Below are positions 24,918 through 59,919 of a DNA stretch of 64,000 bases, one piece after another (position 1 is the stretch's first letter; each line of letters opens with the position of its first letter). A model generated the notes under the pieces. It saw only the letters and a list, made by a program, of their open reading frames with translations. It was not told the DNA's origin and did no database searches. The translations under genes and the position numbers were made by a program. The stretch covers positions 13,379,201 through 13,443,200 of the forward strand of contig JAVTVX010000016.1 of assembly GCA_033439265.1 (NCBI GenBank), read 5' to 3'. This DNA is from Dillenia suffruticosa. Taxonomy: Eukaryota > Streptophyta > Magnoliopsida > Dilleniales > Dilleniaceae.

Positions 24918-26244
24918 TGGTCGGGTTGTCGAAGCCCTCAAATTAATTTTGATTTCCCCAATACAACAAACTGTAGCAATAGTGGTTACTAGGTCGAATC
25001 CCAAGGAAACTAGTTAATTCAATCTCTTAGTTAATGTAAAAAAATTAAGTTGGGGGTTTTCAAACAATTTGCTAAAATAAAATTTGCCGAATAAAAATTA
25101 ATAACTTAAAAATAAGAAACAAATCAACAATGCAAAATACTAAAATTTAAGGAAGAAACTTAATTTATCAAATTCCGATCCAAGGGTTCTTATATTCGAC
25201 TGTCTTATTGATCATTAGTTGAAAATATTATTTTTGCAATTCAAGCATTTAACCTTAAATCTATTAGGATAGCCGAAATAAATCTTTCATTTTCCTAAAA
25301 TAATTGACCAAATCCAGCATCCAATCAAAACTTATCATTAATCAAATAGGTACGATAACGTTTCATATCAAATAATGAGAGTATTAAGTTTTGTGAAAAC
25401 AGTTAAACCAAAATACAAGTAACCAGAATAGCCGTACAATTATTTGATTTTGTTCCATTGATTTCTTAGGTTAAAATGAATATCGGCAACGACCCATAAA
25501 CATAAATAACCTATTTGCTACTTGTACCATTCATTCATAACAATTACGGATCACTGAAATTCTGGATGTAGTAGAAAATTTGATATTGAATTAAATTGTC
25601 AGATTAACCAATACCAATCATTCATAAAAATAAACCAAGAATTGATGAATACTTGAATTAAAAATGCAAGAAATTAAATAAAATACATAACCTCAAAATG
25701 AAGACAATCAATGAAATTCCCCTTGAATCAGAAGAAAAATTAGTCACTCATGGTGAAAACAAACAAGAAAAGAAAATTGTTCTTAAATGAAAAGAAAAAA
25801 AACTAAAACCTAAAGGAATAAAATGTGCAACTGCCCTCTTCTCCTGTGAACAGTAACATGAATAGTGCTGTGGACTCCCTTGGAATATTTATAGGCCATG
25901 AGACTTCAAGGTAAATTAGAAGTCTTCTCTTGCGTGACCTAGATCTCAAAAAGATTCTTCCCTAAAAAATAAGAAACAATTAACTCTTTTAAGCAATTTT
26001 ACTTGAAGTAAAATTTCTATTACAAATAAGTTTCCCATTTTAGATACTTCCTCCTTCCTTTGTCGGCCCAATTGATATATTGAACCAATTAATTCCAAAA
26101 TTGCCTCCTTAAACCCATTTTAATCTAATCTCCAATTTTGATCCCCTAAAAATAAAAAGTCATAAAAAACATTCATTAAGGCAATAACCAATCCAAAATC
26201 ATACTATAATAGCAATAATAAAAATGACATTTTGTGTATTATCA
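24918..26244 (-). repeat. Element D: 3' LTR, 1327 bp
   Basis: On the minus strand it starts TGATAATACACAAAATG and ends AACCCGACCA. A TATA-like TATAAATA lies on the minus strand at about 25887-25894. Confidence 0.9.
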
Positions 26245-26262
26245 AATTCCCCCACACCAAAC
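26245..26262 (-). other. Element D: polypurine tract
   Basis: On the minus strand the bases before the 3' LTR read TTGGTGTGGGGGAATTT. This is the usual place and composition for the plus-strand primer of an LTR element. Confidence 0.8.
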
Positions 26263-27823
26263 TAATGCTTGTCCTCAAGCATACTCTAAATTAATAGCTC
26301 AAAACCATTCTCTTTTTCACTCATTCATCTCTTTCAATTCATCTTCAAATAATTTCAAAAAAGCACATATCGAAAAATTCAATCCAAAATAACAATCCGG
26401 AGAGTAAGTGATCATAGTTTCATGACCATAAAAGAAAATATAAGCATCCCATCAAACTCAACAATCTCATCAAAATTCAATATATCAAGATTCAATACCT
26501 TCACAAGGAATTCACTCTCACACGCAAAGTATTTAAGGAAATTTATCAATAACTCTCAAAATCAAATCAAAATATGTTATTACCATAAGCTTGCTTATTT
26601 ATCAAATGTCCACCACCACTTATATGAATTCAAAACAAAAATCCAAGAGTCTTTGTAAGGGTTGTAACGTGGCTTGGGTAAAAGTAGGATAAAAATGATA
26701 AATGTGATGTGTAATGAATATATCAAAGAAGCATGATGAGAATCACAATATCATATCCCATATCATGAAATACAATCTACCTAAAGAAAAATAACCCAAT
26801 CAAAACTATCTCATTTCTCGATCAGATTTTTGAATTTCTCCAAATTCCAAATTCTGGGAATTTTTTTTTCTTTCATTTTCTGCCCTTTTCGCTTCCCTTT
26901 TGTTTATTTTTTTTTGAAGCACAATCGATTTGGGGATGAATGAAAATACGGAGCATATGCAACTCATCCCAATCGTATAATTGACTTCCCAAAAAATAAT
27001 TCCCACAATAGAAGTACTCAATTCCCTTTATAAATAACCACTCAATCTATGTGCAAATCACACGCTTCTTTGATATAAGGACCAAAAAGAGGGTTAAGCA
27101 TAAAAAGAAGGTTATATGTCAATTAATGTGGTTAAAGTAAAGAAAATGGGTATAAGCTCAAAAGGGTTTCATTAGGGGAAATATTATGCATGGAAGGTTT
27201 TTTTTCGAAAGCTAAAAAAGGGAAAACCTAAATGCCCCCATCATATTAATGCATGAATTCATTGATGTGGTCTCAAAAAATATAGCAAAGCAAGTTTTAG
27301 AATAAACATACTATGATTGATAAACACTCATAAAAAAATAGAGCAAAGATGATGTATGCTCTTAAGGCTCAAAAGCTCACAAAAGGTGTTTAATTTATAT
27401 CAAATCTATCACATTTTCAATCGATTTAATTATCAAGATCAATGAAAATATTTAAAACAATTTATCCAAAAATAACTAATCACGCTTGTCTCTTTCATGC
27501 ATTTCAAACTCAAATCAACAATGCACATTAACTCAAAATCATTATCTGACAAAATCCAGAGATATGAAGTTCCAAAGAAGAATAAAAGAATTGACGTTGG
27601 CATGAAAATCCTCCCCCACACCTAGATACTACATTGTCCTCAATGTATGCAAAAGATGAGAATTTTAGACACAGTGTTAAAGAAATTCACAACTAACACA
27701 ATTGAAAACTAATCTCATAAATGAAAGATGCTAGGCAATGAAAGAGGACAATGACAAGAAAGATAAAAAATGAGAGAACTCCCCTAAGGTGATGGCGGGC
27801 GCTGTGGAGTGCTTCTGCCCAAA

Positions 27824-27991
27824 ACCGCGTGATCATCTCTTAAGAATGAGAGTGCTTCTGCCCAAATTCGGATTGCACCTTCAGAATACCGCATGATCAT
27901 CTCTTAAGAATGAGAGTGCTTCTGCCTAAAAATTTTATTTGACTTTTGAAACCGCGTGATCACGCTCGAATGCCAAGACTGCTTTTGCCTC
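27824..27991. repeat. About 64-bp tandem repeat in element D, three copies
   Basis: Copies start at 27824, 27888 and 27951 with accgcgtgatc or accgcatgatc, and each ends with a cttctgcc or cttttgcc block. The first two are nearly identical and the third is more diverged. It lies in the noncoding part between the 3' LTR and the protease. Confidence 0.85.
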
Positions 27992-28109
27992 CAAAAATTC
28001 TGTATTGAACCATGACTTGGGTGATTGAATTGGACATCTACAAAAATTAAAAGAAGAGATCAATAACACTTAAAATTAAATAAATGAAATTACTAAAAAT
28101 TAAATCAAA

Positions 28110-28160
28110 CTCTTAAAAAAAATTTGGGTTACCTCCCAACAAGCGCAATTATTTCACGTC
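28110..28160 (-). other. Element D: conserved GGGAGGTAACCC motif
   Basis: The minus strand reads GCGCTTGTTGGGAGGTAACC near 28125-28145. A motif of this kind is common downstream of the coding region in plant Athila/Tat elements. Its presence next to the protease shows that the stretch that should hold RT and integrase was lost. Confidence 0.6.
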
Positions 28161-28233
28161 GCTGTGCTCGACGGTCTTCACTTGTTTCTCTTCAAGGAGG
28201 CTTTAATTTTACTTTGTGAGGCTCATATGACTT

Positions 28234-29563
28234 TCATTCCACATCTAATTGTGCATTCAATTCAAAATCAATATCATATTTTTTTTCACAAATTTCCTGC
28301 ACAATTAAATCAAAAATATCAGCATAATAAATTGATTGACACTCATTTGGGTATTTCATATGATCAAAAATAATAAATTTCATAATCTCGCCGTCGAACT
28401 TAACGGAGAGAGTACCCTCATCCATATCTATTTTGGTTTTTGCTATCTTCATGAATGGTTGTCCTAATAGAAGCGGAGCTGAATTTGTGATAGTGTCTCC
28501 TTCCATTTTCAAGATGTAAAAATCAGTTGGAAAAATTAATTTGTTAACCGGCACCAAAATATCTTCAACAATCCCCTCTGGGTAAGCATAAGAGTGGTCA
28601 ACTAACTGAATAACAACCCCAGTTCCTTTTAAGGGATCCAATTTCAGACCACTATAAATTGAATAAAGTATGATATTAATAGGTGCTCCTAAATCTAGCA
28701 TGACATACTTTATTTTTTTTTACCAATGTACAAGGTACAGTGAACATACCTGGATCTGGACATTTTTTGGGTAGAGTTCTTTTGATGATATCACATGCAT
28801 TTTCACCGATCTCAAGACCCCTTATAGTCACTATTTCTTTCTCATATTCATTCGTCTTGGATTCCTCAAACTTGTGTTCATCTTCCTTGTCCATATCCTT
28901 TCCTTCATTTGCCTTCTTAGAATGAGTGAAATTCAAATGAAATTCCTTCTCACTTCTTAATGTTATTGTGCTAATGTTCTCTTTAGGGTTTACTACCGTT
29001 TGTGAAGGTAGTTTCCCTGAGGTTCGAGCTTCCAAGTTGCTAAGCGAGGTTGCCAGTTGAGTGATTTGATTCCCCAAATCCTGTATACTTGCTCTCGTTT
29101 CCTATTGAAATTGTTGAGTGTTAGTCACGAGAGTTTTTATAATATCTTCTAAAGATATACCTGAATTAGAAGATTGTAAAGGTGCTGGTGGTGATCTGTC
29201 AAAAAATTGGGGCGCATATCTTGGCTGTCCTCCTTGATTTCCATAGCTTAAATTTGGATGATCGTTACATTCAAGATTATAATAGTTGGAGAAAGGGTCA
29301 TACATACGTTGAGATTGATCAGGAAATCCTCTTGCGATATTTACATGTTGAGTGGAATCTTCTTGTAAAGATGGACAGATATCCGTAGGATGCCCCGGAA
29401 TTGAATATATGCCACAAACCTTAGCTACCTGCAATTGCCCTATAGTTAACTGACGAACCAATGCAGTTAGTTTAGAAATTTGATTTTCAAGATTTGAGTA
29501 ACTTACCTCAAAAGCTGGGTATTCGAAGCACGGTGGTCGTTGATTTAGATCTGGTGTAGCCAA
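28234..29563 (-). mobile_element. Element D: gag and protease part
   Basis: The gag part (about 29563-28680) holds a Tat/Athila-type signature, VCGIYSIPGHPTDICPSLQE, then DHPNLSYGNQGG. The protease part (about 28700-28234) has the retropepsin-like pattern LDLGAPINI...LLGQPFMKIAKTKID. The family is recognised from these motifs. The coding region is broken in a few places. Confidence 0.85.
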
Positions 29564-29659
29564 CTCTTACAGAGTCCTTTCACGATTTTCCATCTTTTCC
29601 TCTTCTTCAAAAATCAGTAGACAAGTGAAAAACACAAACTAAGAAATTAAAATAGTTCG

Positions 29660-29679
29660 TCGGCAACGGCGCCAAAATT
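29660..29679 (-). other. Element D: primer binding site, tRNA-Asp type
   Basis: Next to the 5' LTR the minus strand reads TTTTGGCGCCGTTGCCG. The TGGCGCCGTTGCCG part is complementary to the 3' end of plant tRNA-Asp(GTC). This primer is common in Athila/Tat elements. Confidence 0.75.
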
Positions 29680-31007
29680 TGGTCGGGTTGTCGAAACCCT
29701 CAAATTAATACTGATTTCCCCATTGCAACAAACTGTAGCAATAGTGGTTACCAGGTCGAATTCCAAAGGAACTAGTTAATTCAATCTCTTAGTTAATGTA
29801 AAAAAATTAAGTTAGGGGTTTTCAAACAATTTACTAAAATAAAATTTGTCGAATAAAATTTAATAACTTAAAAATAAGAAACAAATCAACAATGCAAAAT
29901 ACTAAAATTTAAGGAAGAAACTCAATTTATCAAACTCCGATCCAAGGGTTCATATATTCGATTGTCTTATTGATCATTGGTTGAAAATATTATTCTTGCA
30001 ATTTAAGCATTTAACCTTAGATCTTTTAGGATAGACATAATAAATCTTAAGTTTTTCTAAAATAATTTACCACACCCAACATCCAATCAAAACTTATCAT
30101 TAATCAACTGGACACGATAACATTCCATATCAAATAATGACAGCATTAAGTTCTCTGAAAACAGTTAAATCAAAATATAAATAACCAGGATAGTCGTACA
30201 ATTATTTGATTTTGTTCTATCGATTCCTTCGATTAAAATGAATATCGACAACGACCCATAAACATAAATAACCTATTTGTTACTTGTACCATTCATTCAT
30301 GACAATTACAGATCACTAAAATCCTGGATGCAGTAGAAAATTTGATATTGAATTAAATTATCAGATTAACCAATACCAATCTTTCATAAAAATAAACCAA
30401 GAATCGACGAATACTTGAATTAAAAATACAAGAAATTAAATAAAATACATAACCTCACAATGAAGACGATCAATGAAATTCTCCTTGAATCAGAAGAAAA
30501 ATTAGTCACTCATGGTGAAAACAAACGAGAGAAAAAAATTGTTCTTAAATGAAAAGAAAAAAAAACTAAAACCTAAAGGAATAAAATGTGTAGCCACCCT
30601 CTTCTCCTGTGAACAGTAACGTGAATAGTATTGTGGACTCTCTAGGAATATATATAGACTGTGAGACTCCAAGGTAAATTAGAAATCTTCTCTTGTGTGA
30701 CCTAGATCTTAAAAAGATTCTTCCCTGAAAAATAGGAAACAATTAACTTTTTTAAACAATTTTACTTGAAGTAAAATTTCTATTACAAATAAGTTTCGCA
30801 TTTTAGATTCTTCCTCCTTCCTTTGTAGGCCCAATTGATATCTTGAACCAATTAATTCCAAAATTGTCTCCTTAAACCCATTTTGATCCAATCTCTATTT
30901 TTGATCCCCTAAAAATAAAAAGTCATAAAAAACATTCATTAGGGCAATAACCAATGCAAAATCATACTATAATAGCAATAATAAAAATGACATTTTGTGC
31001 ATTATCA
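29680..31007 (-). repeat. Element D: 5' LTR, 1328 bp
   Basis: It is the same length as its partner to within one base and colinear with it throughout. It ends at 31007, directly before the resumed LTR of element C. Confidence 0.9.
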
Positions 31008-33313
31008 CGCGTCACAGCGCATGACCTTCCACTGGCGCGCGACTGTAGTCCAGCTCGCGAGCGCACGCCTCAGCCCGTGAGCCCGCTAGCCCACCAACCC
31101 ATGAGCCCGCGACGGCCCGCGAGCCTGCGACCGCCCATGAGCCTGCGAGCCCGCTATCTATCCTCTCCTTCGAGAGCTCGCTTGCACGCGAGCCCCCTTG
31201 CTACAACCCCAGCTGATGCCCAAGCCGCAGTCATCAACCGACCCCTGAACCCTAGGTCGCAGCTTCTTCATTGCAGGTAACGGCTGCATTGGTTGTAGTT
31301 CTAAGGTTTGGTGCTTAAAATTTGAGTTAGTTGCTAACATAGTTTCAAATGTGAAAATATTACAGGTTTTAGATCAATTCGATTAGCGAACGAAAGTTAG
31401 GTCTGAGATCTGAGGAACCCTAGGTGAGAGAAATACAATCACTTCAATATTTTAATTGATTTTGTCGAATTTAGGTTGAATTTAGAATCGGAAACTATAT
31501 TTATATATATTCTGAAATATGTTTAATTCGAGGAAAATTAGGAAAAATGAGAAATATTAGAAATTTGACTATTTGTGAGCTAAATGATTCGAAATTGATG
31601 AAACGGGAATCTAAAAAGGAGATTGTGTAAATTTAGGGTTGTGTTAAAGTGGAAAGTAAAATTAAAAATCTCTTATTAGACTTTTATTTGATATTAAATT
31701 GTGATGATTTGATTAGGAAAATCTTTTTGAAGACTCGAGCAGTCAGATTAGATTTATTTGAAAATAGGGAGTGACCACCCTCCCTAGAAAAGTGAATGAG
31801 ACTCTAATCTTTTGCATGAAATAGTAAAACTTGTTTTTGCCATGTTTTCCATAAAACATGTTTTCGATATGCATGGACTCGACGTATGATATTAAATTTC
31901 AAAACTTGTTTTGTGACATTTGGAATGTCGTAAATTTATATTTCTGATGACTATGCATTCATGGTTTGAAATGAAATGATATTGTGCCATTATTTGAGAA
32001 CCAGATATGTTTTTCTATTCTACCGTAGCATTGACATGGATTTGAAACGATTTGATGATTGTATTACCACACGGATTAAAAATGTTTTGATGATTTGTGT
32101 GGGCCGGGTGCCCATTTGTGATGAGATGATCTGTATGGGCTGGCTGCCCACTTGTGATGAGATGATGTTCTTTGATGAATTTCGTAGCTACGAAGGGCAT
32201 TTGTAGAGGTACCGGCTTGCCCGAATATGCTTTTGCAGGAGGTATTCACAAACGTCATGTCTAATGGCTATAGGCGTGGCCGGTTGAATCCACGTAAGGG
32301 AGAGGACATGTGTGACGCCACCGTCTAGCTCCGGGCGGGATCTTATACACGATAATTAGCTAACCCCAGCGAACTCATGGCCAACATCGGGGTAGAGAGC
32401 GACTTTTGAACTTTATGCATAATAAAACCCCGATGCGTCAGTCCTTGGTCATGGTTGACCTCTGCCAGAATATTTTTGGCTTGCTCTAATAATAGTTGCT
32501 TTTGAATGGATGCATATATACTTGATATCGTGTAATTAGTTAAATGATTTCAAATTACTAAACACATTATGTTTTATTGTGAAATGTAAATTATTGTTAC
32601 GAATAATGTTATTTGATACTCAAATAGTTCACCCACACTATTTATGCTTGATATTGATCCCCTCACTCACTGGGTATCTTCCCTGATACTCACCCCTCTC
32701 ATTACCTTCCTCAGACAGGATTACTGTGATAGAGCGACGTTACAAACTCTAGAGGTTTTCGTAGCATATTGGTGGATTCGGTATTCATGACTGTGAGATT
32801 TAATTCAAATAAAATTTTGAAGTCCTTATATTATTTCGACCCTGCGAGGTCATGATATTGAGATCCGTAGTTGGCCGTGTACATTTATATGGGATGACTA
32901 TATAAATTATGGATATTGTTTAGGAAACTCCCATATTTTACTTGCATTGAGGCACTTGTAAGCATTTAAAAATTTTTACTTAGAAAATTATTATACATTG
33001 TATAAACTTTAGGCCCGCTCAATGTGGCGGCTATTCATGCTCTAGTTAGGCATGGCAGTAGAGATTTGTGGTTAGAACTGCTAGTAATTAAAAAGCCTTG
33101 CATTGTCCTGGTTGTCTGCTGTAGTTTGGTTCATTGTCTTGAGGCCAAGATGACCCTTTTATTTGATTGACAGGATGGTTGTGAATTATACAGGTCAAAT
33201 TGTACTTGGGAGACTTCCGACATATGGAGGGATTCTGTCCAATTTTTTATAAAAATACAGCCAACATCCAAGGTAACGGGCGGCTGCCCACGACTCTGGT
33301 TCGGGGTATGACA
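31008..33313 (+). repeat. Element C: left LTR, second piece
   Basis: It resumes with a GC-rich block (31020-31160) colinear with 39200-39390 of the right LTR and ends TCGGGGTATGACA. A block at about 32100-32165 holds two similar units (gtgcccatttgtgatgagat and ctgcccacttgtgatgagat). Confidence 0.9.
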
Positions 33314-36300
33314 GTTTTATTGGTATCAGAGCATCTGGGTTAGAGAAAGGATAGTAGTAAAAGTCTTCCCAAGTATATTAAAAGTTCTCAATGCATTAGA
33401 GAATTTCATACAGTCATTTAAAGTCTCATACTTGGCCATAGACATATAAGTTCATCCATTTTAAGGGGTTGATACATGATGCATCTAACCCATTATTTCA
33501 CATTTAAATGCCTTGATTCATAACTCAAATTCTTTTTGGGGGGTTAGTTACTAGTAATTAACCATAATTCTTGATTTCTACCTAACTAAAAAGATACTAT
33601 TTTTACAAAATTATGCCACCTAGACGTGGTAGGCGTGGTGCTAGAGTCGCACCACCTGAGAGTCCCTAGTGCCCGATGTACCTAGGGTACCCGAGGCTCC
33701 ACGAGTACCAGAGGATGCTTCTTCTACTCGAGCACGGTTACCAGCACCACCCCCAACACCTCCATCAGTTGTTATAGCTGAGATTCCTCCACCACCACTC
33801 GATGCCTTGAGGCAGTGGTAGGAGTGGTACAATAGATATGGGGCGCAGATGCTACCACCTCCATTACAGACTCCAGCAACCGCACCTGCGGCCATACCTG
33901 CACCTACGGCACCGATTCCTCCTTTGGTGGCCGGTCCTTATGTTTCTACTCCGACCGATGAAACATCGGTTGCTTTGAGGCGCATCCATGAGCTTACTCA
34001 GTTGGTGAAAGAGTCTCAGCAGCTCGTATGTACAGACTTTTCAGGATCTAGTGATGTCGTAGCGGCGAAGCACTAGATCAACATGACTCGCAGGATCCTT
34101 ACTAATCTGGGGTTGACAGAGGAGCTCAGTTGAGAGTTGCTAAGAGACTCCTCGACAGAGATGCCCTCTTGTGGTAGGAGGCTATCCGTGATAGTGCTAC
34201 GCAGACCCTGTGGTGGGAGGACTTTCTACACAAGTTCGACCATAGGTACTTCACCTCGTTCTAACAAGATCGTATGAGGATAGAGTTTCTACACTTACAC
34301 CAGGGGACTAGGTCAATCTCAGAGTATGAGGCTGAGCTTAGACGACTAGCGGCCTTTGTCCCCAACATGGCTACACCGGCTCAGATGAGGTTCAAGTTTG
34401 AAGATGGCCTCCAATTGAGCATCATGAAGTATATAACGGTGATCTCTCTTTTATACTCTCAGAGGTGATTGATTCAGCATATTGGGTAGAGGAGATCGTC
34501 CGAGCTGAGGCTAGGCAGAGAGAGAGTCACCAAAAGAGGAAGATTAGGTCACCGGGTGGACAGTCTTTGAAGAAGGGTAGAGGTTTTGGACATCCGGGGG
34601 TTCTTTCAGCTTTAGACTAGCAAGATGGGACAGGAACCTCGACCACAGGGTTTTGGGGTACCAGCCCCTAATGTCTCTACACAGTCTACGATACAGAGAC
34701 AACCTTTCTGTCCTAGATGTGGTAGCCACCATACCTTAAGGGCATGAAGAGTACCAGTTACTTGCTTCCAGTGTAGGAAGCAAGGTCATATTAAGAGTAC
34801 TTACCCAGAGTTAGGTCGAGGAAGACAGACTTCTTAAGGTTGTACTGGTACTTCTGGCATAGGCCAACAGGGGACACCTGTGCACTCAGCTCTTACAGCT
34901 CCTTGGACTGTAACCGGGAGTAATATAGTGCCAGGACCATCGCGACAGTAGCCTAGGGCCCAGGCTTGTGTGTTTGCGATGACACAGGAGGACGCACAGG
35001 CAAACCATAATGTTATTATGGGTAATCCTCCTACAGACCCCTCAGTGTAGTACTTTAGTTCTTTCTTTTTGAGATTTTGTATAATATGATATAGATATAC
35101 AGTTTTGACTAGTTAAAGTTTTAGAAACTTAACTAGTTAGATATATATATAAAGATGTCTATTTTTTACATTTTAAATACCTTTAATTTTTTTCTTACCT
35201 TTAGGTACCATGCGAATATTCAGTATCGACGCCCGTATTCTCATAGATACTAGGTCAAATTTTTCATATGTGAGTGACACGTTCGCTTGCCATTCTGATA
35301 GGCCTCTCTCACCACTTGATGAGGAGATTATGATAGTCACTCCTCTTGACAAGCATATCATTCGAGATACAGTCTATAGGGGCTCTGAGATCAGTATTGG
35401 GGAGCTATTGGAGGCAGATCTGATTCCGTTCACTATCACGGATTTTGATGCCATCTTAAGGATGGATTGACTGAGTTTACACCGGGCTTCCATGGATTGT
35501 TACACGAAAGAAGTTGAGTTTTGGAGGTCCGGGTAGCCACCGTTAGTATTCTGGGACGAGAGACGACTATTGCCCCATAGTATTATATCTATTATGAAGG
35601 CCAGATGCTTGGTACGCCATGGTTGTACGCCTTATCTGACTTATGTTGTCGATACCACCATTGAGGGACCGAGACATGAAGATGTCCCTATGGTGCAGGA
35701 GTTTCTAGATGTGTTCTCCGAGGAGCTTCCAGTATTACCACCAGTTCGGGAGTTCGATTTCGAGATTGATCTAGTATCGGGGACCAATCATATTTCTATT
35801 CCGCCATATAGAATGGTGTCTACTGAACTAAGAGAGCTTAAGATTCAGTTGCAGAAACTTCTAGACAAGGGGTTTATACGCCTGAGCACGTCACCCTGGG
35901 GTGCTCTGGTGTTATTCGTAAAAAAGAAAGATAGTACATTTTGGCTTTGTGTGGATTACAGATAGTTGAACAAAGCCACAATCAAAAACATATATCTCTT
36001 ACAACGTATAGATGATTTGTTTGATCAGTTGTAGGGAGCTATGGTTTTCTCAAAAATTGATCTCCGTTTGGGTTATCATCAGTTGAGGGTTCGGGCTGGA
36101 GATGTGCCCAAGACATCCTTTCGCACCCGATATGGCCACTATGAGTTTTTAGTCATGCCGTTTGGGTTGACTAATGCTCCAGCTGCTTTTATGGATTTGA
36201 TGAACCGAGTCTTCCATGATTTCTTGGATCAGTTTCTCATCGTATTTATCAATGATATCTTGGTGTATTCACAGAGTGATGAAGATCATGTTCAGCACAT

Positions 36301-38639
36301 TCGAGAGGTATTACAGATACTCCGTGAAAAGCAGTTATATGTTAAATTCTCAAAATGTGAGTTTTGATTGAGACATATAGAATTTTTAGGGCACATTGTC
36401 TCTGCGGAAGGTATTCATGTTGATCCGTGAAAGATTGAGGCTATATTAAAGTGGGAGCAGCAACAGACAGTTATCGAGATCCGTAGTTTTCACGGTTTAG
36501 CCGGGTTTTATCATTGATTTGTAAACAGATTTTCTCGGATAGCTGCTCCGTTATCTAAATTGACCCGGAAGAGGTTCAAATTTGTTTGGGATGACCGTTG
36601 TGAGGCGAGCTTTCAGGAGCTCCAACAATGGTTGACATCTGTCCCTATTTTAGCCTTTCCCACTAGCAGTCAGAAATATACAGTGCATAATGATGCTAGC
36701 CGACAGGGATTGGGTTGTGTTCTGATGCAGGATGGTCGAGTCATTGCATATGCTTCTCGGCAGTTGAAGAAGCATGAGTCGAACTACCCGACGTACGATC
36801 TTGAGTTGGCCGCCATAGTCTTTGCCTTGAAGATATGGCGACATTACTTATATGGGGTGACTTGTAGGGTATTCACGGATCACAAAAGTCTAAAATACAT
36901 GTTCACCTAGTGGGAGTTGAACCTCAGACAGAGGAGATGGTTGGAGTTATTGAAAGACTATGACCTTATCATTGATTACCATCCAGGAAAGGCAAATGTG
37001 GTGGCAAATGCATTGAGCCGAAAGTCATCATCCTCCTCTTCTCCCTCTACTATGATAGAGAGTACTTACCTCTCTTGCTTGATGGGACTTCGTACACTCG
37101 AAGTTAGTTTGACTAGTGATGATCAAGGAGCACTACTAGCTCGATTTGAGGTGAGGCCGACTTTGCTTGATCGCATCAAAGAGTTTCAGGGGTCAGATGA
37201 GGAGCTCCAGAGTATTCTTGAGAAGAACAGCAGAGGCGAGAGTAGAGACTTTCGAGTCCGCGATGACCGACTAGTTGTATACAGAGAGTGGTTTGCATTC
37301 TCGTCGACAGCGATTTTCGTAGGGTTATTCTTGAGGAGGCTCATTCCTCCGCTTATGCCCTGCATCCGGGCGGCACAAAAATGTATCGGACTATCTGAGA
37401 TAATTATTGGTAGCCTTGGATAAAAAGGGAGATCGTAGATTTTGTGACTAAATGTTTAGTTTGCCAGCAGGTAAAGGCCGAACATCAGCGGTCGGCTAGT
37501 ACATTACAGCCCCTCCCCATTCCTGAGTGGAAGTGAAAACATATCATGATGGATTTTGTGATGAGACTGCCTCGGATTTCAGCACGGCATGACACCGTAT
37601 AGGTGATTGTAGATAGACTTACGAAGTCTGCACACTTTGTTGCTATTCGTGTCGATTTCTCTTTGGAAGTGTTGGCACATCTCTACATCGACACTATTGT
37701 TAGACTTCATGGAGTACCTGTGTCGATAGTGTTAGATAGAGATCCTAGATTTATATCTAGGTTTTGGCCCAAGTTACAAGAGGCAATGGGCACAAGGTTA
37801 AATTTTAGTATGGCCTATCTTTCGCAGACAGATGGTCAGTTAGAGAGGACCATTTAGACACTTGAGGATATGCTGAGAGCATGCGTGATGGATTTCCGGG
37901 GTAGTTGGGATTGGCACCTTCCACTGGTCGAATTTGCATATAATAATAGTTATCAGGCTAGTATAGGGATGCCCCCGTATAAGGCACTATATGGCAGGAG
38001 GTGCCGCACCCCGATATGCTAGGATGAGGTCGAAGAGCGACGTCTCAGCAGTGTTGAGTTAATTGAGAAAATGAAGGATAAAGTTAAGGTCATCCGTAAG
38101 CGGATGAAAGCCGCCCAGGACAGACAGAAGGCATATGCCGATCGTAGGCGGCAACCTCTTGAGTTTGTCATTGGAGATATAGTTTTCTTGAGAATATCTC
38201 CTTGGAAGAGAGTTATACGGTTCAGGTAGTGGGGCAAGTTAAGCCCCGGATATATTGGGTCATTCCGCGTCCTTGAGAAGGTCGGGAGTATAGCATATAG
38301 ATTGGAGCTACCAAATAAACTATCCCGTATTCATGATGTCTTCCGTGTCTCAGTACTCAGGAAGTGCTCAGCCGATCCTTCTCATGTACTTGAGCCTCCA
38401 CCTATTGAGTTACGAGCGGACCTTAGTCTTCTAGTTCAGCCCGTGACTATCCTAGATCGCAAGTCAGAAAACTACAGAGTAAGGAAGTTTCATTGGTTAG
38501 AGTTTTGTGGCGGAGTGACCAGGTCGAGGAGGAGACCTGAGAGCCCGAGAAGACTATTAGGAGACAGTATCCCCATTTGTTTACTGTTGAGCTTTCTGTT
38601 AGTTTCAGGGACAAAACTTGTTTTTAGGGAGTTAGAAAA
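33314..38639 (+). mobile_element. Element C: gag-pol body
   Basis: A tRNA-Met primer site (TGGTATCAGAGC) lies at 33321-33332. Gag starts at 33613 (MPPRRGRRGARV) and includes a zinc-knuckle region near 34700-34800. An AT-rich spacer precedes the protease (about 35205-35560, RILIDTRSNFSYVS). RT is at about 35690-36370 ([17 protein letters not shown], with FINDILVYS), RNase H at 36560-36910 ([12 protein letters not shown]), the integrase zinc finger and core at 37000-37860 and the integrase tail to about 38560, with an ILDRK chromodomain-like start. All parts are in normal order; there are many breaks. Confidence 0.92.
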
Positions 38640-41551
38640 TGTAACATTGACACTACGGTGTCTGTACTATTGTACTCCTATTCTGGAATTAAATAAAAAT
38701 ATTTCTCGATTTTATATATAGAGAAATTTTTATTTATTTTGATTTTTGATATATATATATATATATAAAGTATCCGTATTACCGATTTGAGGTATACCCT
38801 ATTTTGTTAAAATTTAGAACCTTAAAAAAAAAAAAAAAAAGGTAAACACAATGTTTTGCCCAAAACGCTGCGTTTTCCCCCCAAATTGGATTAGGGTTTT
38901 AAGCCCTAATCTCTCTCTCTCTTCCTCTCTCTCTCTCCTCCTCTTCCCCTTCCGGCGACCTGCCTCCCTCCCTTGCTTGAATTCGCCGCTCTCCTTCGTA
39001 GCACGCCACCACCACTATCCTCTTCTTCTTCTCTCCCTCTCTACTTTTCTCTTTCCCTTTCGGCCGAAAGCCTCTCTCTCACTCTCCCTTTCTCCCTCTT
39101 GTTGTCGCTCTCTCTCTCTCTTCGGCTTTACTACCCTCCGCCCATCTCTCCACCGTTGCTCCTCCCTCCCGCAAGCACAACCTTCCCGCGAGCGCGCTGC
39201 AACGCGAGCTTCCTCGCGCGAGTGCGCCACAGTGCGCTACTTTTTGCAAGCACGCGACTGCAATCCAGCTCGCTAGCATGCGCCTCAGCCCATGAGTGCG
39301 CCAGCCAGCGAGCGTGCCAGCCTGCGAGCCCACCAGCCCACGAGCCCGCGACAGCCCACGAGCCCGCGACAGCCCACGACAGCCCACGATCTGTCCTCTC
39401 CTTTGAGAGCTCTTCTGTGTGCAGGGCCCCCTTGCTGCAACCCCAGCTGAAGCCCAAACCATAGTCATCAACCAACCCCCGAACCCTAGGTCGCGGCTTC
39501 TTCACTGTAGGTAACGGCTGCGTCGGTTGTAGTTCCAGGGTTTGGTGCTTAGAATTTGAGTTAGTTGCTAACATAATTTCAAATGTGGAAATATTACAGG
39601 TTTTAGACCAATTCGACAGACAAACAAAAGCTAGGTCCAAGATCTGAGGAACCCTAGGTGAGAGAAATGCAATCACTTCAACATTTGAATTGATTTTGTC
39701 GAATTTAGTTTGAATTTAGAATCAGAAGTTATATTTATATATATTCTGAAATATATTTAATTCGAGAAAAATTAGAAAAAATGAGAAATATTAGAAATTT
39801 GACCATTTGTGAGTCAAATGATTCGGAATTGATGAAACGGGAATCTAGAAAGTAGATTGTATAAATCTAATGTTGTATTAAATTAGAAAGAAAAATTAAA
39901 AATCCCTTATTAGGCTTTTGTTTGATATTAAATTGTAATGATTTGATTAGAGAAATCTTTTAGGAGACTCAAGCAGTCAGATTGGATTTATTTTGAAAAT
40001 AGGGAGTGACCACTCTCCCTAAAAAAGTGAGTAGGATTCTAATCTCTTGCATGAAATAGTAAAACTTGTTTTTGCCATATTTTCCATAAAACATGTTTTC
40101 GATATGCATGGACTTGACGTATGATATTAAATTTCAAAACTTGTTTTGTGACAGTTGGAGTGTCGTAAATTTATATTTTCGATAACTATGCATCCATGGT
40201 TTGAAATGAAATGATATTGTGCCATTATTTGAGAACTAGATATGCTTTTCTATTCTACTGTCGCGTTGACATGGATTTGAAATGATTTGATGATTGTATT
40301 GGCACACGAATTTAAAATGTTTTGATGATTTGTATGTACCGGGTGCCCATTTGTGATGAGATGATCTGTATAGGCCAAGTGCCCACTTGTGATGAGATAA
40401 TGTTCTTTGATAAATTCCATAGCTACGAAGGGCGTTTGTAGAGACACCAGGTTGCCTTGATACGATTCTGTAGGAGGTATCTGTAAACGTCATATGTCTA
40501 ATGGCTATAGGCATGGCCAGTTAAACCCATGTAAGGGGTAAGACGTGTGTGACGCCACCATCTAGCACCGGGTAGGGTCTTATGCACGATGATGAGATAG
40601 CCCCAGCGAACTCATGGCCAACGTTAGGGTAGAGAGCGACTTTTGAACTTTATGCATAATAAAAACCCCGATGCATCTGTCTTTGGTCATAGTTGACCTC
40701 TGCCAGGATCATTTTTGGCTTACTCTAATAATACTTGATTTTAAATGGATGCATATATGCTTGATATCGTATGATTGGTTAAATGATTTTAAATTGCTAA
40801 ACACATCATGTTTTACTGTGCAATGTAAATTATTGTTACGAATAATATTGTTTGACACTCCAATGGTTTATCCACACTATTTATGCTTGATATTAATCCA
40901 CTCATTCACTAGGTATCTTCTCTGATACTCACTCCTCTCCTTACTTTTCTTAGACATGATTACTGTGATAGAGCGACGTATAGGCTCTAGAGGTTTTCAT
41001 AGCATATTGGTGGATTCGGTATTCACGACGATGAGATTTAATTCAAATAAAAATTTGAAATCCTTATTTTATTTTGACCCTACGAGGTCATGATATTGAG
41101 ATCTGTAGTTGGCCGTGTACATTTATATGGGATGACTGTATAAATTATGGACATTGTTTGGGAAACTCCTACATTTTACTTGCATTGAAGCACCTGTAAG
41201 CATTTAAAAATTTTTACTTAGAAAATTATTGTACAGTGTATAAACTTTAGATCCGCTTGGTGTGGTGGCTGCTCATACTCTAGTTGGGTATAACAATAGA
41301 GGTCTGTGGCCAGGATTGCTAGTAATTAAAAAGCCTTATGTTGTTGTGGTTGTCTACTGTGATTTAGTTCATTGTCTTGACGCAGGGATAACTCTTTTAT
41401 TTAATTGACAAGATGGTTATGAATTATACAGGTCAAATTGTACTGAGAGACCTCTAAAATATGGGGAGGTTCTGTCCGATTTTCTGTAAAAATACAATCA
41501 GTATTCAGGGTAACAGGGCAGCTGCTCACGAATCTGGTTCGAGGCGTGACC
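38640..41551 (+). repeat. Element C: right LTR, about 2.9 kb
   Basis: It starts TGTAACATTGACAC after the pol tail and ends before ccaac at 41552. The GC-rich stretch at 39180-39390 contains short direct repeats (cccgcgacagcccacgag type). Reading frames that span this block on both strands are composition artefacts. Confidence 0.9.
39330..39390. repeat. 18-bp GC-rich direct repeats in element C LTR
   Basis: Units of the type acgagcccgcgacagccc occur about three times with partial copies. The matching part of the left LTR (31080-31150) has cgcgagcctgcgaccgccc-type variants. The block is rich in CG dinucleotides, unlike the rest of the window. Confidence 0.75.
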
Positions 41552-44348: not shown

Positions 44349-47300
44349 TTCTTTCCCACTTAAAAAAATTTTGTTCTCGAAATTCATACTTAATTATAGA
44401 AACAAAGCGGGATACTTTTGTCGGATATCATCTTCAAGTTCCCATGTCGTATTTTCTATTCCATGATTGCTCGAAAGTACTTTTACCCTTACTTTTGCTA
44501 TCTTTACTTTTCTGCTAAGGGCATCTGTAACTACATTTGCTTTTCCTGGTTGGTAATTGATGATACAATTATAGTTCTTGAGATATTTTCCTCATCTTCT
44601 TTGCCTCATGTTAAGTTCTTTTTGAGAGAATAAATACTTTAAATTCTTTTAATATGTGAATACCACAAAAGTTAGCTCATACAGATAATCTCTCCACTTT
44701 TTGAGGGCAAATACTTTGATAGCTAACTTCAAATCATGAATGGAATAGTTTTGTTCATAAGACTTTAATTGCCTTAATGTACATGCTATAACCTTTGCTT
44801 TTTGCATTACGGCCTAATCTTTCTTTTGATACATCAGTGTAAACATCAAACCCATCCTTTTCTTTAGATAAGACAGGTATTGGAGCTATAGTTGGTCCTT
44901 GCTTCAATTCAAGGAAACTTCTTTCACATTCATTGTTCCGGTTAAACTTAGTATTCTTCCGAGTTAGCTTTGTCAAAATTCCATCTTCCGAGTTAGTTTT
45001 GTTAAAATTCTAGCTAGTTTCAAAAATTTTGCACAAAACTTCTATAATATCTGACTAGTCCTAGGAAACTTCATATCTCAGCTATCATCCTTGGTGTTTT
45101 TCATGACAAAATGGATTCTATCTTAAAAGGATCAACAAAAATTCTTTGACCAAGGAAAGTAATTTTTTTTTCTAACCAAAATTCGTATTTACTAAACTTG
45201 GCATACAATTTGTTTCCTCTAAAGGTTTGCAACACACAATGCAAATATTTTTTGTGTTCTTCCTATGATTTTGAGTATACTAGTATATCATCTATGAAAT
45301 CATCACGAAATGGTCAATATATTGATGAAATACTCTATGCATTAAATCCATGAAAGCAGCTGGTGCATTAGTTAACCCAAAAAGGCATGACCACAAACTC
45401 ATAATGACCATATCGAGTTCTGAAACCTATCTTGGGAATGTCCTCTTTTTTAATCCTCAATTGATAATACCCCTGTCTTAGATCAAACTTAGTAAAAGTT
45501 TTAGCACCTTGTAACCGATCAAACAAATCATCTATCAAAAGCAATGGGCATTTGTTTTTTATTGTAACATTGTTAAATCTTTAATAATCAACACACAATC
45601 ATAATATATACCATTTTTTTTTACAAATAACATAGGAGATCTCTATAGTGATACAGTTGGTCGAATAAACCCTATTTCAAGTAAATCTTGCAATTGTAAC
45701 TTAAGTTCTTTTAATTCTAGAAGGGCCGTTCTATACGGGGTCTTAGATATTAGTTCTACTCCTGAAATAAGATCTAAACCAAATTCTGTTTCCCTTTCCA
45801 GAGGTAATGAGGTTAATTTTTCAGGAAACACATCTGAGTAATCTCTTACTATAGGGATATTCTCAATTTTCTTTTTCTCAATGGGTTAATTCATAAGATA
45901 AGCCAGATATCTAGTACATCTTTTATACAAAAAGTTTTCTAGAGCGTGTTCCAAATATAACTATGTGAGAAAAGAGTTTTCTATCTCCTACTAATTCAAC
46001 TTCAAGTTGTCCCGTAGTACAAAGATTTACTATCTTTGTTCTACAATCCATTTTTGCTTGATACCGGGATAATAAGTCCATTCCTAGTATAATGTTATTG
46101 TCCGGGATAAGTAAGACAATCAAATATGTTAGGAATTCTTGTTTATCAATCTCAACTTTGCATGACTTAATTACAAGTTCAGTAGTCATATTACTTCCTA
46201 TTGGAGTACTTATTTCCAATATGTTTGACAACTTTTCAATCTTAACATCTATCAAATAGAAGCAATAAATGAATGTGTGAAATTAGGATCAAATGATATT
46301 TTAACCTTATGATTATTGAAGCATACCTTCCACAACATTAGATGCTTCAAGGATTTCTTCTCATTCCATGGCAAAAACTCTTCCTTGCATCCTAGGTTTA
46401 TTATTTTGATTGCCTTGTCTTTGACCTTGAGGTAGGCTTCTCTTTCCTACTGTCTTGGGACAATTTATAATATAATGTTCATTACTTCCACATCTCATCC
46501 ACTTTTCGGCTTTCAACCAACAACTAACTTCAATATGTCCTAACTTTTGACAATAATTACAAAATTCTCTTTGTCCTATTTGCTTACTAGAATTTGCTAT
46601 ACCATTTTGTTGGTTATTAATAACTTGGCTTTGGGGTGCTAAGCCATTTGAACCCCTTCTTCGTAACTTAGTCAACTTGATGAAGTTGTCCTCCTACTAA
46701 GTTCTACTTGTCATTTGTTCTTGCTATCCTTGACTCGACAAGCCAGTTCTAGCTATATAAATATTCCAAGAAGGGACCTTAAAATAATGAAAGAACTTAA
46801 TATGTCAAAAGGATGGCAAAAGCATCTCGGTAGTATACAATTCCTTAGCAACTATATTACATAACCTTCATCCTACTAAAGTAACGAAAGTACTTTAAGC
46901 AATACCCATGATTTGATCCTAAGAGATCAAGTTTACTATACTCTAAATTTCAGCCAATTTATTAAGTTCTTGCTATGTTCTTTACTATCTCTTCTTGCCA
47001 TACAAAGATCATGTAGGCATGTTTGCAAAGCTTGGAATTCATCTTTGTAGTTCTAGATAACTATTGCAGACATTAATTTTTCATTCTCCAATGATATGAT
47101 TTTCCTACTTAGTTGCTCAATCTTTTCATCTACCTTATTACAATAATCAGTCAAGAATTGATTCCATTTTTCTTGATAATCTAGTTTTTCTCTTAGCACA
47201 CAAGTTTCTAGCTCATATACCTATTTTACTACAACTAATTCATCCCTGTACCTATTATTGTCATAACATGCCTTACATGATAATTTTCTTCAATTGAAAT

Positions 47301-47456
47301 CTGATTTTTATCCGGATCCATTACAAAAAAATTTCCCCACAATGTTAGAAAATCTTCATGAGACAATAATTATTCCTAATTATGATAAATACTCATGTGC
47401 AAATATTCCTACCTAATATCATTGTTTTCCTAACCTAGGCTCTGATAACATTCAAT
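44349..47456 (-). mobile_element. Element F: gag to RNase H body
   Basis: On the minus strand: a gag leader with a heptad-like, possibly coiled-coil stretch (about 47330-46900), zinc knuckles CNYCQKLGHIEVSC and CGSNEHYIINC (about 46590-46450), protease (about 46255-45930, NIILGMDLLSRY), RT (about 45830-45180) and RNase H (about 44980-44480). Integrase is essentially absent. A deletion joining the RNase H region to the polypurine tract would explain this. It has many breaks. Confidence 0.85.
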
Positions 47457-48442
47457 TGTCACGCCCCAAATCCACCCCCTCGCCTAGGCTTCATGGCAAC
47501 GGAATGCCTGGTTCTCACCAGGGCTTAGTCACTTGCATAGTAGTGGAAATCATACTAAAATAGTAAATTTTTCATTTATTTAAAATCACTACATAGTACA
47601 AAAATCTTCTATACATAATAAGGTAGCAGAACTTCTATACCTGAGTGGTTATTCATAACAAGGTTATCTTTATCCGTTCATCTAATTCTCCATGACCTTT
47701 GTCCCTGCATGTTCTAAAAATAATTTTTTGGTATGAGTTTGATAGCTCAGTGAGGTTCGTGTATGCATGTGTGGAAAAACTTTTATTGTTAAATTATATG
47801 ATAAAGTTTTTATAATAAAATCTTGTAAAAACTTTCAATGCAACAACAACATACACAAGACAATAATAATAGTAACACATAACAATTCAAACAGTTTACT
47901 TTCGTCTTATCTCTCCATTACGAGGATGTTCTTCTTATCCCTCTCACGAGGTTTATTTCCAAAAAGTCCTATCACTTTCCCCCGCATTAAGTGGACAAAC
48001 CTTCTGTCCACATTAATGGGGTGCTACTGGTATGTATTTTGATATTTGACAAAGTCCTTACTTGCTCGGACTATCTCCACACATATCGGCTTATATAACA
48101 AACACAAACACATACATTGATGCAGTAGTAGGAAAATCATTGTAACAATAGTAAATCATGATTACAGTAGAGAATTACGAGGGCAGTAGAAAATCACGAT
48201 AGTTATGCATAAAATTATATGAATACAAAGGACACTCGTTTCAAGAAAATATAAAGAACACTCACCTTAAAGAGTTAGCCAAGATCTTTAACTATTTTGC
48301 TCTTTCCTTTTACTATTTTCTCTCTTCTTCTCCTTATTTCTCTTCTTTTCTTCTTCTCTTCTTCTCTTTCTCTCTTCCTTTCTCTCTCTCTCTTTTTCCT
48401 TTTCTTTTGGCTGAATTGGTTTGGGGAATGGAAGGGATGGAG

Positions 48443-48450
48443 TATTTATA
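48443..48450 (-). promoter_or_regulatory. TATA box of element F 5' LTR
   Basis: On the minus strand GCCTATAAATAC is followed by a GA-rich leader (48298-48415). It lies only about 8 bp past the point where the G-type LTR entered the other F LTR copy. Confidence 0.6.
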
Positions 48451-48594
48451 GGCTTTGTTGGGTAATGAATCTTTGACAAGTGTTAGGACACTTGTTGATC
48501 ATGTAAAGTTCTTGTTCTAGATGTAAGCCATGTGTCCTTCCATGTGTCATGTGGTGGCATAAGAAAAATATGCAATTGACAAGTGTCCAAATAT

Positions 48595-52390: not shown

Positions 52391-53930
52391 AACAAAGCCT
52401 ATAAATACCCATTCATTCCATTCCCTAAACCAATTCAGCCAAAAGAAAGGAAAAAGAGAGAAAGAGAGAGAAAAAGAAAAGAAGAGAAATAAGGAGAAGA
52501 AGAGAGAAAAGGGTAAAAGGAAAGAGCAAACTCATTAAAGATCTTGATTAGCTTTTTGAGGTGACTATTCTTTATATTTTTTGAAATGAATATCCATTGT
52601 ATTCATATAATTTTATGCACAACTACCTTGATTTTCTACTACACTCGTAATTTTCTATTGCAAGCATAATTTACTACTGTTATAATAATTTTCCTACTAC
52701 TATATCAATGTATGTGTTTGTGTTTGTTATATAAGCCGATATATGTGGAGATAGTTCGAGCAATTAAAACTTTGTCGAATATCAAAATATATACCGGTAG
52801 CACCCCATTAATGTGGATAAGAGATTTGTCCGCTTAATGCAGGAAAGAGTGATAGGCCTTTCCGGAAATGGATCTCGTGGGAGGGATAAGAAAAACATCC
52901 TCATAATAGAGAGATAAGACAAAAGTGAACTATTTGAATTGTTATGTGTTAATGTTATTATTGTCTTGTGTATGTTGTTGCTGCATTGAAAGTTTTTACA
53001 AGATTTTATTATAAAATCTTTATCGTACAATTTAACAATAAAAGTTTTTCTACACATGCGCACACGTACTCCACTAGACTATCAAGCTTACACAAAAAAT
53101 TATTTTTAGATCATGTAGGGACAAAGGTCAAGGAGGATTAGATAAACGGATAAAGATAGCCTTGTTATGGATAACCACTCTAGTACAGAAGTTCGCTGTC
53201 TTATTATGTATAGAAGATTTTTGTAATATGTAGTGATTTTAAATAAATAAAAATTTTACTATTTTAGTATGATTTCCGCTACCATGCAAGTGACTGAGCC
53301 CTAGTGAGAAGTAGGCAGTCCGTCGCTAATGAAGCCCCATCGAGGGGGTGGATTTGGGGCATGACAATTGAATGGTATCAAAGCCTAGGTTAGGAAAACA
53401 TTGATATTATGTAGGAATATTTGTACATAAGTATTTATCATAATTAGAAATAATCATTATATCTCATGAAGATTTTCTAATATTGTTGGGAAATTTTATA
53501 GTAATAGATCCAGATAGAGATCAGATTTCAATTGAAGAAGATTATCATGTAAGGCATGTTTCGACAACAATAGGTACAAGGATGAATTAGTTGTAGTAAA
53601 ATAGGTATATGAGCTAGAAACTTGAGTGCTAAAAGGAAAACTATATTGTCAAGAGAAATGGAGTGAATTCCTGACTAATTATTGTAATAAGGTAGATGAA
53701 GAGATTAAGCAACTAAGTAAGGAAAACATATCATTGGAGAATGAAAAATTGAGGTCTGCAATAGTTATCTCGAACTACGAAGATTAGTTCCAAGCTTTGC
53801 AAACAGGCTTACATGATCTTTGTATGGCAGGAAGAGATAGTAAAGAATATAGCCAGAACTTAGTAAATTGGCTGAAATTTGGAGTATAGTAAACTTAATC
53901 TCTTAGCTCATCATTAAACTAATTTTACCA
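52391..53930 (+). mobile_element. Element F', 5' end of a second F copy, plus strand
   Basis: Positions 52391-53366 are the second half of an F-type LTR, colinear with 47457-48459 in inverse. A tRNA-Met-like primer site (TGGTATCAAAGC) follows at about 53373. The gag leader runs to about 53930, matching 46890-47456 inverted, then homology stops. The start is the point where the G-type LTR entered. It has multiple breaks. Confidence 0.85.
52400..52407 (+). promoter_or_regulatory. TATA box of element F' LTR
   Basis: TATAAATA is followed by the GA-rich leader at 52440-52515. The G-type LTR entered just upstream and separated it from its upstream half. Confidence 0.6.
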
Positions 53931-58036: not shown

Positions 58037-58041
58037 CTATC
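58037..58041. repeat. Target site duplication of element J, left copy
   Basis: ctatc directly before TGTCACAACC. The right copy is at 59915-59919. Confidence 0.85.
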
Positions 58042-58481
58042 TGTCACAACCCAACCTACTAACTCCACAAATGTTGAGCTGGACTGTTGAATTCAATAAT
58101 GGAATGAAAACAAAGCATGGGGACTGCAAAACAGAGCATGTGAGCTTTCTAAAATTGACACGTTAATGGGTGGATTCATGATAAGGAACTGCTTGTGAAA
58201 GGTTGTAGATTGAAAGAAGGGTTGAGGGAGAAGGGAAAGAGAGAGTTAGAGAGAGAGAGACGTAGAGGGAGAGAAAAAATAGAAGCATTGACAGAGAGTG
58301 GAATAAGAAGAAGATTTCTCATTCAATTGCCTGCTTACTTTTGGGTCTATTATAAGTATTTAAAGACTGCTAACAGATTTAACTACTTCAATTAGTTGGT
58401 TTTAACCATCAAATCAACAACCTATGTAACTAACTAAACTAATCTCCAAGCCGTTAGTTTCAAAGTTCAATAGCTGCTTCT
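58042..58481 (-). repeat. Element J: 3' LTR
   Basis: It is colinear with 59459-59914 (cctactaactccacaaatg, gttgagctggactgttg, ctccaagccgttag). On the minus strand a purine-rich gaagggaaggg tract precedes it. Confidence 0.85.
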
Positions 58482-58490
58482 CCCTTCCCT

Positions 58491-59294
58491 TCAAAGAAAC
58501 ACCTTGTCCTCAAGGTTCGAAGGTAATAAAAATGAGCTTAATAGGTTGACTATAGTGATGGATGAGTCAACTACAGCAGCAGAAGCATTTTTTTCCTTCT
58601 TCTTCTTCTCGTATTTTATTTTTTTCTTTTTCTTCTTGTATTTCTCCTTATCTTTCGCTTCTTCCAAAATAATATTGAAGACATCATCTGAAGCTGCTTC
58701 CTCCACCTCTTGCTGATTCTTGGCAGCGGTTATTTTGCTTCCAAGTTTATGTAGGCATTCTTCTGTTTGAGTGAAAAATGATGGGAAAACATTATATGTC
58801 AAATTATTATTGCTGCTTACCATTATCAGTGGCCCAAAAGAATCATATTTCCCAGTGAAGAATAGGAAATCAAATAGTGGTCCATGATATTTCTGAGTTG
58901 AATCTGCATCTTTGGCCTGGGAAAGGGTGCCTGCTTGTATAGATTTTTTGACTTGCACCGCAACAGATGCAACTGCTTTGCCCTTATCCAGATTTATATC
59001 ATTTTGAACTGCACTTTTGTAAAAACCACAATCAACTTCATGATCCGAATTACAAGATATTGCTAAGGCTTGTTGCTTCTTCTTTGTTGTAGAGAACCCA
59101 ACTAGAGGTTCCTTCATCACAGACACTGGACCTTGAATTATATGAGTTGAAGTAGTTGGTTTCTCATTCCCCGTAAAACCTTTGTCTTTGGAGGAACTTT
59201 GTCCAGCTGCTGAACCTGTAAAGAAGTTTGGGACTCTCGTTTTGTTTTTGTCCCATCTTAATGGTGGTGTGATTTTCTCATCAAGATTTCCCAA
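58491..59294 (-). mobile_element. Element J: interior frame with a BRAHMA-derived segment
   Basis: A 267-residue frame inside J. Residues about 25-168 resemble the region of plant BRAHMA (BRM, SWI/SNF ATPase) ahead of the QLQ/HSA part. The strongest match is KYHGPLFDFLFFTGKYDSFG at residues 135-154, close to the KYHGPLFDFPFFTRKHDSFG remembered from BRM proteins. EHEVDCG-like and KGKAVAS-like pieces precede it. Residues 170-267 do not look like BRM: a Lys/Glu-rich, probably coiled stretch (212-236) and a LEDKVFL end typical of retroelements. No ATPase motif is present. I infer capture of a host segment by the element; the BRM match is from memory. Confidence 0.7.
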
Positions 59295-59458
59295 AAAAAA
59301 AAAAAAAAAAAAAAAAGAACTTCTTTTTTTCGATCTAGTTCATCCATGCTTGGTACCATCTGAAGACAACTGTCTTTGATTGTTTTTATTGTTTCATACC
59401 AAGTTTCATCTGCCATTATTTAGTGCTAACCTAGGAATTACAGGCTCGGATGCTAATT

Positions 59459-59914
59459 TGTCGCAGCCAACCTACTAACTCCACAAATGTTGAGCTGGAC
59501 TGTTGAATTCAATAATGGAATGAAAAGAGAGCATGAGGACTACAAAACAAAGCATGTGAGCATGCTGGGTTTGGCACGTTAATGGGTGGATTGATGATAA
59601 GGAATTGCTCGTGAAAGGTTGTAGGTTGAAAGAGGGGTTGAGGGAGAAGGGGAAGTGAGAGTTACAGAGGGAGAAAGAAGTAGATGGAGAGAGAAAATAG
59701 AAACATTGATAGAGAGTGGAGTAAGAAGAAGAATTCTCATTCAATTACCTGCTTCCTTCTGGGTCTATTACAAGTATTTAAAGACTATTCTAACAGATTT
59801 AACTATTTCAACTGAATGGTTTTAAAAATCAAATCATCAACCTATGTAACAAACTAAGCTAATCTCCAAGCCGTTAGCGTCAAAGTTCAGTATCTGCTTC
59901 TGTAGGTTGTAACA
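59459..59914 (-). repeat. Element J: 5' LTR, 456 bp
   Basis: On the minus strand it starts TGTTACAACC and ends GGTTGGCTGCGACA. The outer end is set by the ctatc duplication. Confidence 0.85.
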
Positions 59915-59919
59915 CTATC
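59915..59919. repeat. Target site duplication of element J, right copy
   Basis: ctatc directly after the LTR end; it matches 58037-58041. Confidence 0.85.

Follow-up and report, generated by a model that had tools for sequence, protein, structure and literature searches.

Does a short LTR element in the genome of Dillenia suffruticosa carry a captured fragment of the gene for the chromatin remodeller BRAHMA (BRM), and if so, by which route did host sequence enter it? We addressed this question for element J, which lies in a 64,000-nucleotide window (C16:13379201-13443200) of a genome searched as 596 Mb in 37 contigs. The combined evidence indicates that J is very probably a decayed member of a non-autonomous LTR retrotransposon family, short in length, that acquired pieces of host mRNAs by template switching.

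Structure of element J

The preliminary description of this locus had named LTR-like repeats and a CTATC duplication, and both are borne out: blastn returns a direct repeat pair (88.3% identity over 435 bp; 87.1% at 449 aligned sites of the LTR pair), and CTATC is read at both edges. Element sense is the minus strand, a point missed in that description, and in this direction the parts are ordered as LTR, degraded primer-binding-like site, gag-like start, two BRM pieces, lysine-rich tail, purine run, and LTR. Features and their positions in the window are as follows.

58037-58041: left target-site duplication CTATC (read directly)
58042-58481, minus strand: 3' LTR in element sense (blastn of repeats, edges)
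58482-58492, minus strand: polypurine-tract-like GAAGGGAAGGG (sequence)
58491-58692, minus strand: element tail, a lysine-rich frame ending NLEDKVFL (sequence and genome search)
58491-59339, minus strand: 282-aa stop-to-stop frame holding the BRM pieces (frame listing)
58693-58800, minus strand: second BRM piece, TQTEECLHKLGSKITAAKNQQEVEEA (DNA identity 88.9% to BRM-A, 88.0% to BRM-B)
58796-59214, minus strand: first BRM piece, SAAGQSSSKD ... KYHGPLFDF ... NNNLT (DNA identity 86.2% to BRM-A, 82.9% to BRM-B)
59258-59416, minus strand: short ATG frame MADETWYETIKTI..., a gag-like remnant by position, running into a ~24-nt T tract (frame)
59443-59458, minus strand: primer-binding-site-like AATTAGCATCCGAGCC; sister copy L013 reads AAATTGGTATCAGAGC there (sequence)
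59459-59914, minus strand: 5' LTR in element sense, TGTTACAACC...GGCTGCGACA (blastn, sequence)
59915-59919: right target-site duplication CTATC (sequence)

The LTRs measure 440 and 456 bp and enclose an interior of ~977 bp. The 5' LTR starts with TGTTACA and ends with GCGACA, giving the TG...CA termini, and the outer start of the 3' LTR is absent, with ~14 nt missing beside the purine tract. Primer-binding site and polypurine tract are in place but degraded in J and clearer in L013 and L016; a run of GGGGCGGGATA occupies the polypurine position in L013, L015, and L016, and the primer-binding-like stretch of J is one that we presume to correspond to initiator methionine tRNA. With paired LTRs, a short target-site duplication, a primer-binding site, and a polypurine tract, J has the make-up of an LTR retrotransposon.

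The proposed lack of retroelement enzymes agrees with the Pfam scan, which covered the two interior frames of 282 and 53 aa (a third scanned frame lies mostly outside the element) and gave no match above cut-off for either, the short ATG frame MADETWYETIKTI... included. As no reverse transcriptase or integrase family was found in the two interior frames, J does not classify as an autonomous LTR retrotransposon. Searches with J's own frame gave nothing useful in PDB (best E = 0.63) or among viral and genome contigs, and a single match (E = 1) among plasmids. Parts of the tail (query 58486-58700) are found at many BRM-free places in the genome, and on C34 six tail matches, at ~11.33, 11.57, 11.79, 11.99, 12.19, and 12.40 Mb, are spaced roughly 200-235 kb apart, as if a large block were in tandem.

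Other repeats occur in the window. Positions 24918-31007 hold a repeat pair of ~1.3 kb (92% identical) around frames that, on our assumption, resemble gag and protease; a pol frame was not seen among the listed frames of that interval, which is possibly a truncated LTR element. A second pair of ~2.2 kb (31080-33312 and 39319-41550, 87% identical) flanks reverse transcriptase- and RNase H-like frames at 35537-38721 and probably represents an older LTR element. Positions 46919-48459 and 52391-53906 form an inverted repeat pair, 87% identical over 1.5 kb.

The BRM fragment and its dispersed copies

The peptide initially singled out as BRM-like, KYHGPLFDFLFFTGKYDSFG, is present in the 282-aa minus-strand frame (59339-58491), and the similarity, first put at about 145 residues, amounts to 69% over 165 aa against the host BRM on C19 (E = 9e-76 in a single protein comparison). 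A second block of 33 aa matches the same gene at 82% (E = 2e-13), and at the DNA level J and BRM are 86% identical over 434 aligned bases. The two BRM pieces of J overlap by 5 nt at their joint, and ~578 nt of BRM are absent between them. The host carries a pair of long, related BRM genes, BRM-A on C19 and BRM-B on C30. The C-terminal part of BRM-A matches BRG1/SNF2-type remodellers in PDB and Helicase_C in Pfam, and no Pfam family was found in the 474-aa donor stretch; BRM is taken here as the name of plant genes built in this way and of the donor stretch itself. What J retains of BRM lies upstream of the ATPase and is interrupted by a gap; without the SNF2 ATPase domain, J does not qualify as a functional BRM protein.

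The preliminary description saw no intron in the interior and offered intron comparison as a check on capture through RNA. The captured BRM stretch is indeed intron-free, but this says nothing on an RNA route: judging from reading frame and splice signals, the captured stretch and both its ends appear to sit within a single donor exon, and the intron test on BRM is therefore uninformative between RNA and DNA capture.

The proposed search for further J copies, run with one BRM exon as query (pieces of other BRM exons would escape it), recovered both BRM genes together with 11 additional places, all of which match two exon parts only (query 153-637 and 1215-1322). Family sizes are lower bounds, as each genome search scored no more than 40 candidates. 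Ten of the 11 places were examined; the one remaining, on C19, matches over 86 nt and lies ~14 kb away from another copy. A full flanking LTR pair is present at six of the ten (J, L011, L012, L013, L015, and L016); at L017 the pair is partial, and none flanks L014, L018, or L020. Four of the six LTR-paired copies have 5-bp target duplications, all different: a script found CTATC in J, CTTGT in L011, and TATCG in L016, and GAGCA in L013, seen by eye, adjoins a changed last LTR base. No duplication was found for L012 and L015. Dispersal with differing target-site duplications is thus read directly from these copies, and host match, two BRM genes, and dispersed LTR-flanked copies together support the original claim that J is an LTR element with a captured BRM fragment.

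J, L011, and L012 have in common a 15-bp deletion and the BRM-to-tail joint, and their internal gaps differ. A tree of the BRM piece, built from 11 rows and without L018, has poor resolution. At sites where the two host genes differ, all ten copies are more A-like (12-21 sites) than B-like (6-11 sites), which, in a comparison made without an outgroup, fits capture from BRM-A and capture before the A/B duplication alike. BRM capture by an LTR element was not found in the open-access literature searched, and a text search of that literature with the J peptide and plant BRM peptides found no paper.

Including loci that carry other host genes, the count comes to at least 19 loci (10 examined BRM loci, two with PABP only, and seven with DUF7356 and no BRM), 16 of which were read in sequence; DUF7356 loci on C37, C12, and partly C17 fall outside that set. 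No autonomous partner of the family was found. The first 371 nt of the L016 interior contain a gag-like start that recurs at at least 19 BRM-free places among the candidates scored, and offers a possible route to an autonomous relative.

PABP and DUF7356 pieces and the route of capture

In seven of the ten examined BRM loci (L013-L018 and L020), BRM runs into a piece of a poly(A)-binding protein (PABP) gene; the L014 frame matches poly(A)-binding protein in PDB (E = 6.3e-29) and RRM_1 in Pfam (1.5e-11). The donor lies on C18 and a paralogue on C4, both with an intron in the captured stretch (84 bp, GT-AG, in the C18 gene), and this intron is missing in all seven chimeras, whose sequence is contiguous at the splice point. 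Two PABP-only loci on C19, L033 and L034, carry more of PABP than the chimeras and apparently lack all four of the host gaps there, which measure 68 to 519 nt; no LTR pair flanks either locus within 6.3 kb. L033 carries the primer-site region of the family (72.8% over 213 bp); L034 has hardly any family match and could therefore be an ordinary processed pseudogene. At nine positions where both host genes agree and the chimeras typically differ, L033 has four of the changes and L034 one, which suggests that the PABP of L033 and that of the chimeras go back to a single origin. Two element RNAs may have given rise to the chimeras.

A third donor, encoding DUF7356, lies upstream of BRM in three of the seven chimeras (L013, L014, and L020). 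Its piece also occurs at seven BRM-free loci, among them L025, L035, L036, and L037, each of these four inside a repeat pair, and the L037 piece translates to DUF7356 above the curated cut-off (E = 1.2e-15). The donor on C35 and its paralogue on C13 are both intron-split. Intron A|B is missing in 7/7 copies read (the joint bases are changed in L035), and intron B|C in 3/3. In L014, a single frame of 278 aa spans the DUF7356, BRM, and PABP pieces, all three of which keep the reading frame of their donors. The three pieces and their host donors, the loss of PABP and DUF7356 introns, and the chimeric joining are all direct observations. Between DUF7356 and BRM, L013, L014, and L020 have ~60 nt with no source match, which may be a fourth captured piece; a 39-nt part of this spacer recurs on C31, C18, and C12.

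The BRM-PABP joint lies at AAATCTGGAT, 10 nt that the two donors have in common. As AAACTGGAT now stands at this place in most chimeras, the exact joint point is one that we infer from the donors. The BRM exon and the PABP stretch have two 10-nt tracts in common, and identical tracts of at least 10 nt account for 2.9e-5 of breakpoint pairs. Donor pieces that are intron-free and a joint on common bases both fit template switching, and an RNA route is indicated for the family because the PABP and DUF7356 pieces are spliced in sister copies, J itself holding only BRM. Under this explanation, template switching in the course of reverse transcription would have linked mRNA pieces from a host BRM exon, PABP, and the DUF7356 gene, presumably within a virus-like particle and with enzymes supplied by an autonomous relative. 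The BRM piece would likewise be RNA-derived, and the joined pieces would then have been amplified and recombined, with the copies decaying afterwards; the order of capture events is likewise only inferred. Points against this explanation are that the BRM piece would be intron-free anyway, that L014, L018, L020, L033, and L034 have no flanking pair and L017 only a partial one, that no autonomous partner came to light, that ~60 nt are unsourced, that the tree is poorly resolved, and that the joint point is drawn from the donors.

Could the gene pieces instead be processed pseudogenes, made by another retrotransposon and landing in LTR elements, or DNA-level pickups, that were then co-copied? We regard this as unlikely. 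Such an origin would accommodate several observations: spliced sequence by itself names no enzyme, the captured BRM stretch offers no intron whose loss could be scored, L033 and L034 hold spliced PABP with no flanking LTR pair, and the T tract of ~24 nt in J lies some 80 nt upstream of its BRM piece. BRM ends that fall within an exon, and unrelated genes that meet at a 10-nt common stretch, are however better fitted by strand switching.

It is less probable still that small RNAs produced from the family dampen the host BRM and PABP genes. Perfect matches to BRM-A reach 45 nt in J and 31-36 nt in L013, L014, and L016, long enough to make 21-24 nt RNAs possible and no more, but the pieces have the same orientation as the order of LTR and primer site, so that an extra antisense step would be required. 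That the BRM likeness is due to chance or a common low-complexity stretch can be rejected as having a negligible probability, given that nothing points to it beyond the lysine-rich tail, itself outside the match, and that the single protein comparison (E = 9e-76) and the 86% DNA identity over 434 aligned bases stand against it.

Age, coding potential, and known systems

LTR-pair divergence (K2P) ranges from 0.065 to 0.196 in six copies and is 0.143 in J. At substitution rates of 2.5e-9 to 1.3e-8, J would be roughly 6-29 million years old. For the BRM piece, the host pair A-B has a Ka/Ks of 0.35, and A against the ten copies gives 0.51-1.06; of ten chosen copy pairs, seven fall at 0.91-1.33 and the other three at 2.35-4.54. 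The BRM piece is without clear protein-level constraint. For the PABP piece the values are 0.09 for the host pair, 0.23-0.44 for the C18 gene against nine copies, and 0.30-0.82 for 36 copy pairs. A branch-class test (four row sets by two classes, p uncorrected, neutral expectation rough) gave its lowest p for synonymous excess, 0.034, for PABP changes common to the seven chimeras, and 0.056 with all nine copies, which is at most a hint of constraint. Common BRM changes did not differ from neutral in this test. Terminal changes showed no synonymous excess, and terminal synonymous changes in BRM fell below expectation, an unexplained deficit on account of which we call the neutral expectation rough. 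In-frame stops interrupt the PABP stretch of 4/9 copies, and no examined copy appears clearly to encode a useful protein. It is very doubtful that the captured PABP RNA-binding domain was once kept for a benefit to the element, with a small chimeric RNA-binding protein of master copies holding the polyadenylated RNA of the element for packaging as a stand-in for gag.

TRIM and LARD elements are non-autonomous, LTR-bounded, and without pol, TRIMs having very short LTRs and interior. By these class definitions J resembles both; its length of ~1.9 kb with LTRs of ~450 bp fits the size limits of neither, and we reject J as a TRIM given LTRs of 440 and 456 bp and an interior of ~977 bp. BRM, PABP, and DUF7356 pieces lie between LTRs with their donors elsewhere in the genome, as in a gene-capturing element of the Bs1 type. 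Host-gene capture by plant LTR elements is already known, but its steps are usually lost. Here, one-, two-, and three-gene versions coexist with donors, splice junctions, and a 10-nt switch point, and with the steps of capture preserved side by side, the order and mechanism of exon shuffling by retrotransposons become testable in one genome.

The LTR-captured genes of rice and sorghum are likewise host sequence inside LTR retrotransposons; in the available part of that account (PMC3726574) they are defined within full-length elements, whereas the fragments here are decayed and can be followed back to exons of their donors, splice junctions included. A survey of maize, in the portion accessible (PMC2774510), counts 425 intact LTR elements with gene fragments, from at least 189 independent captures, and the J family resembles this set in holding host gene fragments within LTR elements. 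Under the conditions of that survey, the same portion gives no element with more than one nuclear gene, whereas seven of the ten BRM loci here combine two donors and three of those seven have three (PMC2774510). Bs1 of maize, as described in the section available of a 2026 review (PMC13317346), is an LTR element to which three host genes have contributed pieces, and the J family is like it in having three unrelated donor genes, none at full length. It differs from Bs1 in its donors and in the coexistence of one-, two-, and three-gene versions in this genome; the chimeric gene of Bs1 is described as transcribed and translated (PMC13317346). The best reading of the J family is thus capture of the Bs1 kind in combinatorial form.
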